A stretch of 64,000 bases of DNA from Brevibacterium sp. CCUG 69071 (GTDB taxonomy: Bacteria > Actinomycetota > Actinomycetes > Actinomycetales > Brevibacteriaceae), in assembly GCF_021023135.1 (NCBI RefSeq), contig NZ_PGFV01000009.1, positions 1 to 64,000 on the forward strand. Reading direction: 5' to 3'. The notes beneath the pieces were generated by a model that did not search any database, was not told the DNA's origin, and was given only the letters and a program-made list of their open reading frames with translations. Shown here in pieces: positions 36,051 through 42,983 of the stretch; the stretch's first letter is position 1, and every line of letters starts with the position of its first letter. The position numbers and the translations under genes were made by a program.

Positions 36051-37652
36051 ATGAGAAAACGAGGATTGCGGAAAGCTGCGGCGGGACTCTCGGTCAGCGC
36101 GCTGGTGATGATGTCCGTTTCGCCTGCGAGCTCAGCGACGACTTCCACCTGGGCCGGCTGGACGGATTTGGAAGGAGAGAGCCGCGACTACACCGCAAGC
36201 ATGACGCTGGCCGGACAGCCCGAACTGTCCGCGGACGTCACCTCGGATTCCCGAGCCGGAAGCGTCGGACTCATCAGCGGATCGTCGACTTGGCTGTCCG
36301 AAGGTACGCCCGTCGGTGCGAAATACGGGTCTAGTCGCAATCAGCCGTACCTCAACTTGCGTCCGTACGCGGACAGCGCCAGCAGTCCGTCGACGACTAC
36401 CTACGCTTTCGATTCGCCGACACCGAAATCGGGCTGGTCTTTCGTGCTCGGCGATATCGATGCCGATCAGGTCAGCATCTCGGCGACGACCGCAGAAGGG
36501 AATCCGGCGACCTCCGAGGACCTCGGATTCAAGGATGGTTTCAACTACTGCGCCGAAGGCGTAGCTGGGAAACCCTCATGCTCCGGATCTGCCGAGGACG
36601 TGCCGCGGTGGGATGAGACCACGCTGACTCTGACAGGCAACGATCAGGCAGAGGATACGTCCGGTGCTGCTGCCTGGTTCGAGCCGAATGTGCCGTTGTC
36701 CTCGTTGACCTTCGAATTCACTCGGCGGTCGGGTTTTCCTGTTTATCAGACATGGTTTGTCTCTCAGGCGCGCGACATCACCGGGTCCGTCATCGACGAA
36801 GTCGATGGGCCGCTCGGCGGCGTAAAGGTGACGTTGACCGACGCTGATGGTGCGGTCCTCGCGACGACGACGAGTGAGGCCGACGGCAGTTTCGCTTTCC
36901 CCGAATGGTTTGCCACCGATGGTTACGTCGTGTCATTCACTGTCCCTGACGGGAAGACCGTCGTCGGCGACGACTCCCAGGCCATCGACCTGAGCGAGGA
37001 GGACGGTGTCGCAGACTTCGTCGTCCGCGATGACTCGGACGAAGACCTGGACGCGGCGTCCGATGAGGATGCTGGCTCCGATCCTGACGCGGATACCGCG
37101 GCCGACTCGGATGCGGCGTCTGATGAGGATGCGGGTACTGATCCGGATGCGGCGTCTGATGAGGATGCTAACTCCGATCCCGATGCGGCCACCGCTACTG
37201 ACCCGGACGCGGACACCACGTCTGATCCCGACACCACTTCCGATCAGGAGGCCACCTCCGACGACGCTAGCGATCCGAGCGCAGACTCCGCAGTAGACGT
37301 CGCCGCCGAAGCCGATTCCGTTGCAGACAGCGATGACTCTTCTGCCGGAACCGGTTCCGAAGCCGACAGCATGGGCGGGGACGACGTCGACAGTGATTCG
37401 GCGGCGGATTCCACTCCCGATCCGACCGATGCTGCGGGTACCGACGACGGCGGAAAGTCCGCAGATGCGGCAGAGGGCACAGGCGCACACGCAGGGGGAA
37501 CCTCGGGATCTGATTCCTCGTCGAGTTCAGCAGATGGCGCTCGTCTGCCGGTGACCGGCAGCACGGGCCTGCAATACAGTGTCGGTCTCGGTGCGCTTCT
37601 CGTCGCCACCGGTCTTGTACTGGTCGTGGCCGTCCGCCGACGTCGCGGCTGA
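36051..37652 (+). CDS. LPxTG-anchored acidic surface protein with Cna_B-like domain
   Basis: A 533-residue cell-wall protein. A signal peptide spans residues about 1-29 (ends SPASSA-TT). Residues 30-245 form an uncharacterised beta-rich domain with two Cys. A Cna_B/SdrD-like domain follows (ITGSVIDEVDGPLGGVKVTLTDADGAVLATTTSEADGSFAF, about 245-320). Residues 325-490 are very rich in Asp, Ser, Ala and Thr with hexapeptide repeats. LPVTG (499-503), a hydrophobic helix and RRRRG make the sortase signal. Likely surface display with a Ca2+-binding or spacer stalk. Codon use in the stalk is repetitive. Confidence 0.9.
   Translation: MRKRGLRKAAAGLSVSALVMMSVSPASSATTSTWAGWTDLEGESRDYTASMTLAGQPELSADVTSDSRAGSVGLISGSSTWLSEGTPVGAKYGSSRNQPYLNLRPYADSASSPSTTTYAFDSPTPKSGWSFVLGDIDADQVSISATTAEGNPATSEDLGFKDGFNYCAEGVAGKPSCSGSAEDVPRWDETTLTLTGNDQAEDTSGAAAWFEPNVPLSSLTFEFTRRSGFPVYQTWFVSQARDITGSVIDEVDGPLGGVKVTLTDADGAVLATTTSEADGSFAFPEWFATDGYVVSFTVPDGKTVVGDDSQAIDLSEEDGVADFVVRDDSDEDLDAASDEDAGSDPDADTAADSDAASDEDAGTDPDAASDEDANSDPDAATATDPDADTTSDPDTTSDQEATSDDASDPSADSAVDVAAEADSVADSDDSSAGTGSEADSMGGDDVDSDSAADSTPDPTDAAGTDDGGKSADAAEGTGAHAGGTSGSDSSSSSADGARLPVTGSTGLQYSVGLGALLVATGLVLVVAVRRRRG
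37056..37187 (+). repeat. 18/36-bp repeats coding the acidic stalk
   Basis: Units of 18 bp encode ASDEDA, GSDPDA, (24-bp spacer DTAADSDA), ASDEDA, GTDPDA, ASDEDA and NSDPDA. The pair ASDEDA-[GN][ST]DPDA makes a 36-bp higher-order unit. The array degrades further downstream into Asp/Ser/Thr-rich sequence. Confidence 0.8.
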
Positions 37653-40300: not shown

Positions 40301-41326
40301 TCAACCCCAGCTCAGGCGCTCGATTCCGGAGAGGACGAGGTCGAGGCCGACGATGAACTCGGACTTCTCATCGAATTTCGCGAACTCGCCGAGCACCGAG
40401 TGGACGAAGGGGAACTCCTCTTCGTCGAAGCTCGCCCACCGGTCGATCTGCTCGGCGAACTCGGCCTCGGTGTCCTCCATCGACTCGCGATCGATCGCGC
40501 TCTGCGAAACCTCCGCACCCATTCCGGACGCGTAGTTGACCACAGTCAGCGAGGCGTGGAACTGGCTGGTCAGGTCGAGTTCCGTCCTCTGCAGGGCCTG
40601 GCCGATCCGTTCCCAGTAGCTGAGTGAATTGTGTTCGTCGGGGCCGGCCTTGATCAGCTGCCCCGCCAGCCAGCGGTGCTCGATCATCTGGACGAACAGA
40701 CAGAGGACGAGGCGGCGGACGTCCCGCAGCGCCTCGGCGGTGGCGGTGCTCGTAGCCTCCGCCGGGACCATCTCGGGATAGGCGGCGAACACCGGCGGAG
40801 TGGCCAATCCGTCGGCAATGAGCGCATCGGCGTCATCGAGGGCGCGACCGAGCAGCTCGTCGGCGACGATCGCCATCAGCTCGTCCTTGCCCGAGGCATA
40901 CCAGTAGAGGCTCGCGACACCGCTGTCGAGCTGCGCGGCCAACCCTCGCAGGGTCACCTTCTCCGCTCCCACGGCATCGAGGGTGGCGATCGCCGCCTCG
41001 ATGATCTGGTCGAGCGACAGCGATGCGCGGGTGCGCGACTGCCCGCGACCGCCTCGACGACGGGGATCCTGGCGACCCGAACGACGCATCTGTTCCGACC
41101 GTTCGATCCGTTCGGCGCGAGCGGCTCGCGGGTCGAAGGCGCCCGAGCGCGGATCGCGCCCGTCACGGGGATCCCGTCCGGCGCGTGGGTCGCGGCCATC
41201 ACGCGGGTCGCTTCCGTCACGCGGATTGCTTCCGGCTCGCGGATTGCGAGCTGAGCGGGGAGTGCGCCGGCCGCGCGAGCCCGGGGTTGATTCGCCGCGT
41301 GGACGACGGGGTGTGTCGGATGCCAT
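40301..41326 (-). CDS. TetR-family regulator with Arg-rich hexapeptide N-terminus
   Basis: A 341-residue TetR protein. Its HTH is at residues about 105-150 (SLDQIIEAAIATLDAVGAEKVTLRGLAAQLDSGVASLYWYASGKDELM), followed by a TetR_C_1-like ligand domain. The first ~100 residues are unusual: very basic, disordered and built on NPRDGS/DPRDGR-like repeats. Such a tail could bind DNA non-specifically. It diverges from a DHA2 efflux gene across an operator array, so it is almost certainly its repressor. The start at 41326 opens the whole repetitive region; an internal start cannot be excluded. Confidence 0.85.
   Translation of the reverse strand: MASDTPRRPRGESTPGSRGRRTPRSARNPRAGSNPRDGSDPRDGRDPRAGRDPRDGRDPRSGAFDPRAARAERIERSEQMRRSGRQDPRRRGGRGQSRTRASLSLDQIIEAAIATLDAVGAEKVTLRGLAAQLDSGVASLYWYASGKDELMAIVADELLGRALDDADALIADGLATPPVFAAYPEMVPAEATSTATAEALRDVRRLVLCLFVQMIEHRWLAGQLIKAGPDEHNSLSYWERIGQALQRTELDLTSQFHASLTVVNYASGMGAEVSQSAIDRESMEDTEAEFAEQIDRWASFDEEEFPFVHSVLGEFAKFDEKSEFIVGLDLVLSGIERLSWG
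41148..41255. repeat. 18-bp minisatellite in the TetR N-terminus, 6 units
   Basis: Units start at 41148, 41166, 41184, 41202, 41220 and 41238; consensus CGCGGGTCGCTTCCGTCA. On the minus strand they encode NPRAGS, NPRDGS, DPRDGR, DPRAGR and DPRDGR hexapeptides. Confidence 0.85.
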
Positions 41327-41359
41327 GCCTCGAATCTACCGACCCGCTTGCAATCGATC

Positions 41360-41425
41360 AAACAGCGTTCTATTCTCGAACAGAGTTCGACAGATCGAAC
41401 AACGTTCCATAAGCGAACGGGGTTC
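41360..41425. promoter_or_regulatory. Array of four GAAC-N3-GTTC operator-like sites
   Basis: GAACagaGTTC (41378), GAACaacGTTC (41397) and GAACgggGTTC (41415) are perfect half-site pairs; AAACagcGTTC (41360) is a degenerate fourth. Starts are spaced 18, 19 and 18 bp. They fill the region between the TetR and DHA2 genes. Confidence 0.8.
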
Positions 41426-41528
41426 GATCATGTCTTCCGAAACTCAGCTCTTCCAGACACTCATCTCTTCCGAAGCTCACCTCCTCGGGACCGGATACCG
41501 GCCCCTCCCGCCACACGAAAGGCTCCCC

Positions 41529-42983
41529 ATGTCCTCCCCAGCATCCACCACGACTGCGGTGTGCAAACCGCAGAGTCTCCGCGCGGCCTGGCCCGCACTC
41601 CTCGCCCTGTGCCTGACCATGCTCGTCGAGATGGTCGATAACTCCATCCTCAACATCGCCCTGCCCACGATCGGCAGAGACCTCGGCGCCTCGCCGACGG
41701 ACCTCCAATGGATCGTCGGCGCCTACTCCCTGACCTTCGGCGGACTGCTCATGGTCGGCGGCACGATGGGCGACAAACTCGGCCGCAGGCGGACCCTCCT
41801 CGTCGGCCTCGCCCTCTTCGGACTGGCCGGCCTGGCCGTCCTCCTCGTCACCACTCCCGTGCAGCTCATCGCGGTGCGGGCGCTCTCCGGGGCCTTCGCT
41901 GCGTTCATCGAACCGCTGACGATGTCCCTGATCTTCCGCCTCTTCGACCGCGATGACCTGCGGACGAAGGCGATCGGCATCATCATGGTCGTGTCCATGA
42001 TCGGCTTCGCCGTCGGCCCGACCCTGGCCGGACTCGCCATCGCCAGCTGGCCCTGGCAGGCGCTGCTCGTCATCAACGCACCCGTGGCCGCCATCGCCTG
42101 GATCGGTGTGCGCTTCGGAGTCGCCAAGGACGATCCCGCCGACCGCAGAAGCGGCGGCACCGACGTTGTCGGCGCCGCGCTCTCGGTCGCCTCGCTCGGG
42201 TTTCTCCTCTACGGCTTCACCGCCGGAGTCGAGAACGGATGGACCGCCCCTCTGACCATCGCCGTCTTCGCCGCCGGCATCCTCTCACTCGTCGGGTTCA
42301 TCTGGCGGGAGAAGACTGCGACGGACCCGATGCTCGACCTCAAGCTGCTCGCCCTGCCCACCGTCAGCGGATCGGCGATCCTGCAGACGGCGACGATGAT
42401 CGCCATGGTCGGCGTCATGTTCGTCTCCACCCAGCTCTACCAGTTCGCATGGGGCTGGTCGGCCCTGCAGGCCGGCCTGGCGAACCTTCCGTTCGTCGCC
42501 GGAATGCTCGTCGCCGGGCCCTTCGTCGACCGGGCCGTCGCCCACTTCGGACACCGCAAGACCTCGATCGGGGGCGTGGCGCTCGTGCTCATCAGCCTCG
42601 TGATCTGGATCTTCGCCCTCTCCCACGGATTCATCTGGTGTGCCATCGGCATGCTCGTGATGACGATGGGCATGCGCACGATCATGACCACGGGAGCCGT
42701 CGCCCTCCTCGGTGCGCTGCCCGAATCGCATACTTCGATCGGCTCGGCGCTCAACGACACCGCTCAGGAGCTCGGCAACGCCGTGGGCGTGGCGATCGTC
42801 GGCACGATCATGGCGACGGTGCTCGGCAGCACGCTTCCGCAGGGGGCCTGGGATTCGGCCATGGTCGCCGGGTTCGTCCACTCCCAGCAGATCTCGTTCA
42901 CCATCCTCGCCGGCATCGTGCTCGTGATGTCGATCTTCGGCATCCGCACGCTCACCGATTCGAAGGAGACCGAAGAGCACTGA
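41529..42983 (+). CDS. DHA2-family MFS efflux transporter
   Basis: A 484-residue, 14-helix drug:H+ antiporter. DNSILNIALPTIGRDLGASPTDLQWIVGAYSLTFGGLLMVGGTMGDKLGRRRTLLVG carries motifs A and D1, and the motif C-like glycine-rich helix is SMIGFAVGPTLAGLA. It likely exports amphiphilic or quaternary compounds. ATG 41529 follows GAAAGG by 6 nt; ATG 41430 would add 33 residues without a good ribosome site and would lie 5 bp after the last operator. Regulated by the divergent TetR gene. Confidence 0.9.
   Translation: MSSPASTTTAVCKPQSLRAAWPALLALCLTMLVEMVDNSILNIALPTIGRDLGASPTDLQWIVGAYSLTFGGLLMVGGTMGDKLGRRRTLLVGLALFGLAGLAVLLVTTPVQLIAVRALSGAFAAFIEPLTMSLIFRLFDRDDLRTKAIGIIMVVSMIGFAVGPTLAGLAIASWPWQALLVINAPVAAIAWIGVRFGVAKDDPADRRSGGTDVVGAALSVASLGFLLYGFTAGVENGWTAPLTIAVFAAGILSLVGFIWREKTATDPMLDLKLLALPTVSGSAILQTATMIAMVGVMFVSTQLYQFAWGWSALQAGLANLPFVAGMLVAGPFVDRAVAHFGHRKTSIGGVALVLISLVIWIFALSHGFIWCAIGMLVMTMGMRTIMTTGAVALLGALPESHTSIGSALNDTAQELGNAVGVAIVGTIMATVLGSTLPQGAWDSAMVAGFVHSQQISFTILAGIVLVMSIFGIRTLTDSKETEEH

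Follow-up and report, generated by a model that had tools for sequence, protein, structure and literature searches.

A predicted tandem operator of GAAC-N3-GTTC sites between divergent TetR-family and DHA2-like pump genes in Brevibacterium

Introduction

Do closely spaced inverted repeats between two divergent genes of Brevibacterium sp. CCUG 69071 form the operator of the neighboring TetR-family repressor, and what sets their arrangement? We addressed these questions in a window comprising the first 64,000 nucleotides of contig NZ_PGFV01000009.1 (assembly GCF_021023135.1), for which an original prediction had proposed four GAAC-N3-GTTC sites controlling a drug pump. Sites of this kind are already known as operators, since SCO7222 of Streptomyces coelicolor has been reported to bind three of them: DNase I footprinting placed it on three TGGAACGnCGTTCCA operators, gel shifts gave three complexes, and the protein represses the divergent gene SCO7223 (PMC3511530).

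Results

Four regularly spaced sites separate a repressor gene from a pump gene

The array separates a TetR-family gene, read leftward, from an MFS gene read rightward, with the following features:

40301..41326, minus strand: TetR-family repressor, 341 aa; Arg-rich tail of ~100 residues, then TetR_N and TetR_C_1
41148..41248, minus strand: 18-bp tandem repeat, 5.6 copies, coding for part of the Arg-rich tail
41360..41370, plus strand: predicted operator site 1, AAACAGCGTTC; one mismatch; AAAC in 14 of 23 compared loci
41378..41388, plus strand: predicted operator site 2, GAACAGAGTTC; exact GAAC-N3-GTTC; over the putative pump transcription start
41397..41407, plus strand: predicted operator site 3, GAACAACGTTC; exact GAAC-N3-GTTC; in the pump 5' leader
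41415..41425, plus strand: predicted operator site 4, GAACGGGGTTC; exact GAAC-N3-GTTC; in the pump 5' leader
41529..42983, plus strand: DHA2-like MFS efflux pump, 484 aa; ATG preceded by GAAAGG; nearest named model Tet(43)

All four sites stand where they had been predicted, including the degenerate one at 41360, with steps of 18, 19 and 18 bp. Their regularity is thus borne out, but the term "phased" applied to them is loose: 18–19 bp is ~1.75 turns at 10.5 bp per turn, so adjacent dimers would not share one face of the DNA and, by this arithmetic, would sit ~70–100 degrees apart. Like the targets of SCO7222-like repressors, the region holds at least two GAAC-N3-GTTC palindromes between divergent genes. 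The start codons are 202 bp apart, at the edge of a published rule of under 200 bp (PMC3511530).

The number of exact sites is weak evidence, with 0.86 expected per shuffled 64 kb and three or more in 8 of 100 shuffles. Their clustering is strong evidence against chance. Simulating 200 Mb from a first-order Markov model of the window's dinucleotide frequencies, we counted 3069 single sites and, tallying pairs and not triples, zero pairs 14–24 bp apart. Across the 4.13-Mb genome, the exact double-site pattern occurs only once (backward-pattern control, 0). The array is not a chance occurrence.

The repressor scores 29.0 bits against PF00440 (cut-off 24) and 34.2 bits against PF02909 (cut-off 21), which places it in the TetR family. 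AlphaFold2 modeled an all-helical domain (mean pLDDT 72.7) and left the tail mostly disordered, drawing one helix at residues 66–82 within the N-terminal 100. The top Foldseek rows are TetR-family chains, led by 2hxo (E 1.6e-06, probability 1.00); TM-scores are modest (0.30–0.39 by query) and r.m.s.d. values large. Its closest solved relatives are 2hxo, SimR and ActR-type proteins. The structure 2hxo is SCO7222 itself, which is both the best PDB sequence match and the top fold match, and SimR aligns with the repressor through a basic stub and the HTH. All 13 aligned orthologs share the HTH segment GVASLYWYASGK without change.

The pump matches PF07690 (MFS_1) with 147.6 bits, above the cut-off of 33.4, and the DHA2 EmrB-type model TIGR00711 with 166.1 bits, below the cut-off of 230.2. 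Its best models are Tet(43), SmvA, QacA/B, QepA and EmrB, and "DHA2-like" appears a fair label. Tet(43) as the best NCBIfam model hints at tetracycline export; the score of 443.5 bits does not reach the exception cut-off of 999 for that tetracycline pump. We rejected an in-frame start at 41430 in favor of 41529, which has the upstream GAAAGG and fits the orthologs. A 16-bp tandem repeat of 3.4 copies occupies 41428–41483 in the pump leader.

The array accompanies its predicted regulator across the compared loci

We compared 23 TetR/pump loci in one orientation, allowing one mismatch per site, and found four sites in 13, three in eight and two in two (L010 and L038, each with two recognizable sites). 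Neighboring spacings are nearly constant, 54 of 57 falling at 18–20 bp (36 at 18, 13 at 19 and five at 20), with outliers of 16, 22 and 25. The array is retained where repressor identity has dropped to 30–34% (L038, L056–L059, L062 and L063). The loci are non-independent, ten coming from one genus and L013/L014 being close. Twenty-one are the window itself or were recruited by TetR sequence; L038 and L040 entered by pattern search alone, so their arrays are there by selection. The table omits the entries L001–L002, which are the window itself, L012 with its short upstream sequence, the bioB-type loci L018, L019, L021 and L024, and repeat species (L015, L020, L022, L023, L026–L037, L039 and L041–L050).

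One of the searches by TetR sequence recruited 12 loci, half of them (6 of 12) from Brevibacterium, the nearest relatives included. At least two sites are present in all 11 with upstream DNA, L010 and L014 reaching two only by allowing one mismatch each; L012 lacks upstream DNA. Of 57 genomes of the genus, 14 contain the exact double-site pattern (control, 0), and in ten of these a TCGAAC-type array lies between the TetR and pump genes. Searching with the tail-less TetR core (E ≤ 1e-30) returned the same ten genomes out of 57. The array is therefore in 10 of 10 genomes with this TetR and 0 of 47 without it, a co-occurrence with a chance of 1/C(57,10) = 2.3e-11 if phylogeny is ignored.

The double-site pattern is not specific by itself, because it also catches bioB-type arrays. 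Rival candidates for the regulator of the sites are LexA and the biotin repressor BioQ. LexA boxes in actinobacteria read GAAC-N4-GTTC, with half-sites identical to those here. BioQ is a TetR-type regulator whose predicted site, TGAAC-N3-GTTCA, has the same core and lies upstream of bio genes (PMC3398298). Five genus genomes carry TTGAAC...GTTCAA-type arrays (G010, G020, G031, G040 and a second place in G033), and in L018 and L021 these adjoin an ORF that reads by eye as bioB (biotin synthase); L019 and L024 share sequence context with both. Such paired TTGAAC-N3-GTTCAA sites, 18 bp apart, lie near positions 1501–1529 in L018, L019, L021 and L024 and also at G033:C135:55423, and would fit BioQ-type arrays.

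The sites studied here differ from both. We rejected BioQ on flanks and neighbors: BioQ-type sites have TTGAAC...GTTCAA flanks and a biotin target, unlike the mostly TC...GA flanks here, where a C precedes every core (TC, TC, TC, GC) and the target is a pump. LexA was rejected on spacing, N3 here and N4 at lexA, and the sites do not qualify as LexA/SOS boxes: in this genome, the lexA locus (3189 bp) has one exact N4 site, ~160 bp before the lexA open frame, and no exact N3 site. Genome-wide, we counted 34 unsorted matches to CGAACNNNNGTTCG (backward control, 3). As the array is also restricted to this TetR in the genus sample, we regard control by LexA or BioQ as scarcely credible and keep the neighboring TetR as its predicted regulator.

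Beyond the genus, a stricter promoter-plus-two-sites pattern was found in 11 of 396 genomes from the order, in three of 109 genera (control, 0). In a draw from the phylum, at least five of 396 genomes match the TetR at E ≤ 1e-20, counting the window's own genome and scoring at most seven candidates per genome, which makes the figure a lower bound. Each of the four others has the array beside a divergent pump relative, with one of three sites degenerate in L056. Of 15 plasmid-record matches, 12 were examined (H11, H13 and H14 were left out). By eye, the 260 bp preceding the match contain at least two sites, each with no more than one mismatch, in nine of these; the same stretch holds zero sites in L067 and L070 and two doubtful ones in L069. 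L062 and L063, beside annotated MFS genes, are the only plasmid entries in the table.

Related sites also appear in other settings. In the plasmid records L064 and L066, TetR-type genes diverge from FAD oxidoreductases (best model Tet(X), well below cut-off), with GAAC-N3-GTTC sites 23–29 bp apart upstream of the tetR-type genes. Records from Burkholderia and Rhizobium (L065, L068 and L072) also have similar sites ahead of TetR relatives. Checking for a wider regulon in the window's genome, we found CGAACNNNGTTCG at 11 places, two of them inside the array (backward control, 1), and read two of the other nine. In the same genome, a further tetR-like ORF and an ORF diverging from it have one lone CGAACAGTGTTCG between them (L060 1546–1558; G000:C13:601645).

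The downstream pair may derive from a duplication

The array consists of two 37-bp, two-site halves identical at 27 of 37 bases. An offset of 37 gives the top self-match among offsets 12–44, and Tandem Repeats Finder returns the same period. It is plausible that a two-site ancestor, as in L038, was duplicated into the four-site array. A neutral version of this history would leave only sites 1 and 2 as functional operators, with sites 3 and 4 a by-product of the duplication, as the likeness of the halves and the two-site loci L038 and L010 might suggest. The fourth site is nevertheless kept in 13 of 23 loci, 16–19 bp past the third, although the leader beyond it differs, and these four-site loci comprise Brevibacterium, Rothia and L040. 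The third site is likewise retained in both Corynebacterium loci and in L056–L059, L062 and L063. We consider a neutral downstream pair unlikely and treat all four sites as predicted operators.

Promoter-like boxes are in register with the sites

Candidate promoters for both genes overlap or abut the first sites:

41348..41353, plus strand: putative pump -35, TTGCAA; TTG-starting hexamer at the same offset in 20 of 23 loci
41371..41376, plus strand: putative pump -10, TATTCT; abuts site 1, 17-nt spacer; TANNNT there in 21 of 23 loci
41356..41361, minus strand: putative tetR -35, TTGATC; two bases in common with site 1
41333..41338, minus strand: putative tetR -10, TAGATT; 6 nt before the ATG

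A strict consensus scan of 41200–41560 returned zero promoters, and by hand count both candidates match 8 of 12 consensus bases; the assignments therefore rest on conservation. In the two Corynebacterium loci the pump boxes read TTGACA-N17-TATATT. Given the fixed register of the pump boxes with site 1, this site would lie between them, and the pump start (about +1) would fall on site 2. A strict terminator scan found nothing.

Towards tetR, TTGRTN-N17-TANNNT is present in all 14 loci whose site 1 has AAAC, its first two T following from AAAC by construction, and the -10 is TAGATT in 12 of the 14. In the other nine, site 1 has GAAC or GAAT and the tetR-ward boxes are absent (0 of 9). The degeneracy of site 1 would thus be a cost of the two bases that it has in common with the tetR -35. 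Where the start is resolved, the -10 ends 6–7 nt ahead of the ATG, so the tetR transcript is probably leaderless.

The array is kept in loci without a long Arg-rich tail

The original prediction had also suggested that the Arg-rich repeat tail might contribute to cooperative or non-specific DNA contact; a role for the tail in the array was not supported. The tail measures 102 residues to the first invariant domain residue here, 24 in L006 and 35 in L013/L014, and in L005 it is net slightly acidic (10 R/K, 12 D/E). The count sets aside L008, which starts upstream of the likely ATG and has a shorter true tail, and L012, which is cut. Because these short- or acidic-tailed loci (L005, L006 and L013/L014) keep three or four sites, the Arg-rich tail appears unnecessary for the array, and we rejected tail-driven cooperativity as its main cause. 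Broad conservation is limited to a short basic stub (RRRGGRG.. and variants) just ahead of helix 1. The distant homolog in L057 has a Gly-Arg-rich repeat tail in its N-terminal region, which suggests that tail expansion recurs.

An all-or-none switch built on touching, strongly cooperative dimers with help from the tail could draw on the 54 of 57 spacings at 18–20 bp and on the conserved stub. Indeed, the near-constant spacing hints at contact between neighboring dimers, and QacR and CprB bind cooperatively as dimer pairs (PMC4150764). Tail length and charge vary while the array stays, however, and the step is a non-integer number of turns. Moreover, the three separate complexes of SCO7222 on three sites argue, by analogy, against all-or-none binding (PMC3511530). 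We judge such a switch decidedly improbable.

Discussion

The operator reading is supported by the sites, their conservation and spacing, their co-occurrence with the TetR, and promoter-like boxes in fixed register. That they are operators through which the neighboring TetR controls the pump, as first proposed, is upheld as a prediction by this conservation and by the footprinted relative SCO7222. Comparison and relative together make a strong case for it, and leave the cooperative-tail mechanism unsupported. We infer binding, repression, autoregulation, distinct roles for the sites and a drug ligand. We consider it highly probable that the array is a bidirectional tandem operator, at which TetR dimers on four sites repress both pump and tetR until a drug releases them.

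In this bidirectional operator, dimers of the 40301–41326 repressor would bind the four sites, whose full form is approximately TCGAACnnnGTTCGA. Occupancy of site 1 in the pump spacer and site 2 at the pump +1 would exclude RNA polymerase from the pump promoter, while sites 3 and 4 would increase occupancy and may obstruct departing polymerase. Site 1 would overlie the -35 of the putatively leaderless tetR promoter as well, so that the repressor would limit its own expression there, probably via the weakest site. Binding of a drug would make the dimers leave the DNA, and the pump would be produced. It is possible, though doubtful, that the array winds around the DNA as an ordered assembly at ~18-bp steps, with the weak shared site 1 a two-way governor of repressor level and pump output and the downstream pair, from the 37-bp duplication, sharpening the drug response.

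Pip, of the ptr system, is a TetR-family member whose operator letters differ from these, and the half-site of TetR/TetA likewise differs from GAAC/GTTC. The Pip operators of Streptomyces pristinaespiralis resemble those here in having two 4-bp elements and a 3-bp spacer; Pip represses the ptr promoter in a drug-responsive manner from three operators instead of four, two overlapping the putative -10/-35 and one 10 nt past the start (PMC5743821). TetR/TetA has 15-bp palindromes and a divergent pump, as well as two operators in place of four (PMC3511530), and the repressor here shares the TetR_C_1 domain. SimR/SimX pairs a divergent TetR-family repressor with an MFS pump, but has two separate operators, with no tight array in the text cited (PMC5812520). 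Closest is SCO7222/SCO7223, with a TetR-family repressor, a divergent target and a GAAC-N3-GTTC core between the genes; there, three operators with TG...CA flanks face a monooxygenase gene (PMC3511530), whereas here four sites with mostly TC...GA flanks and ~18-bp spacing face a pump gene.

With four sites and two promoters on a DHA2-like pump, the layout here adds one more member to this known kind of operator. Searching the text of open-licence literature for GAAC-N3-GTTC spellings returned the BioQ paper only and zero pump papers; this is weak evidence of absence, because the SCO7222 paper, where the site is spelled in another form, was missed as well. Our analysis carries the footprinted SCO7222 operator type over to DHA2-like pumps, and for a drug-pump switch conserved in several actinobacterial genera it predicts the operator, promoter pair and regulator. 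The idea of an Arg-rich tail driving the array is corrected, and loci with two, three or four sites form a natural series in which the effect of operator number is measurable. Elsewhere in the window, the ORF at 36051–37652 has a long Asp/Ala/Ser-rich repeat and, by eye, an LPVTG-like C-terminal end; its product is perhaps surface-anchored.
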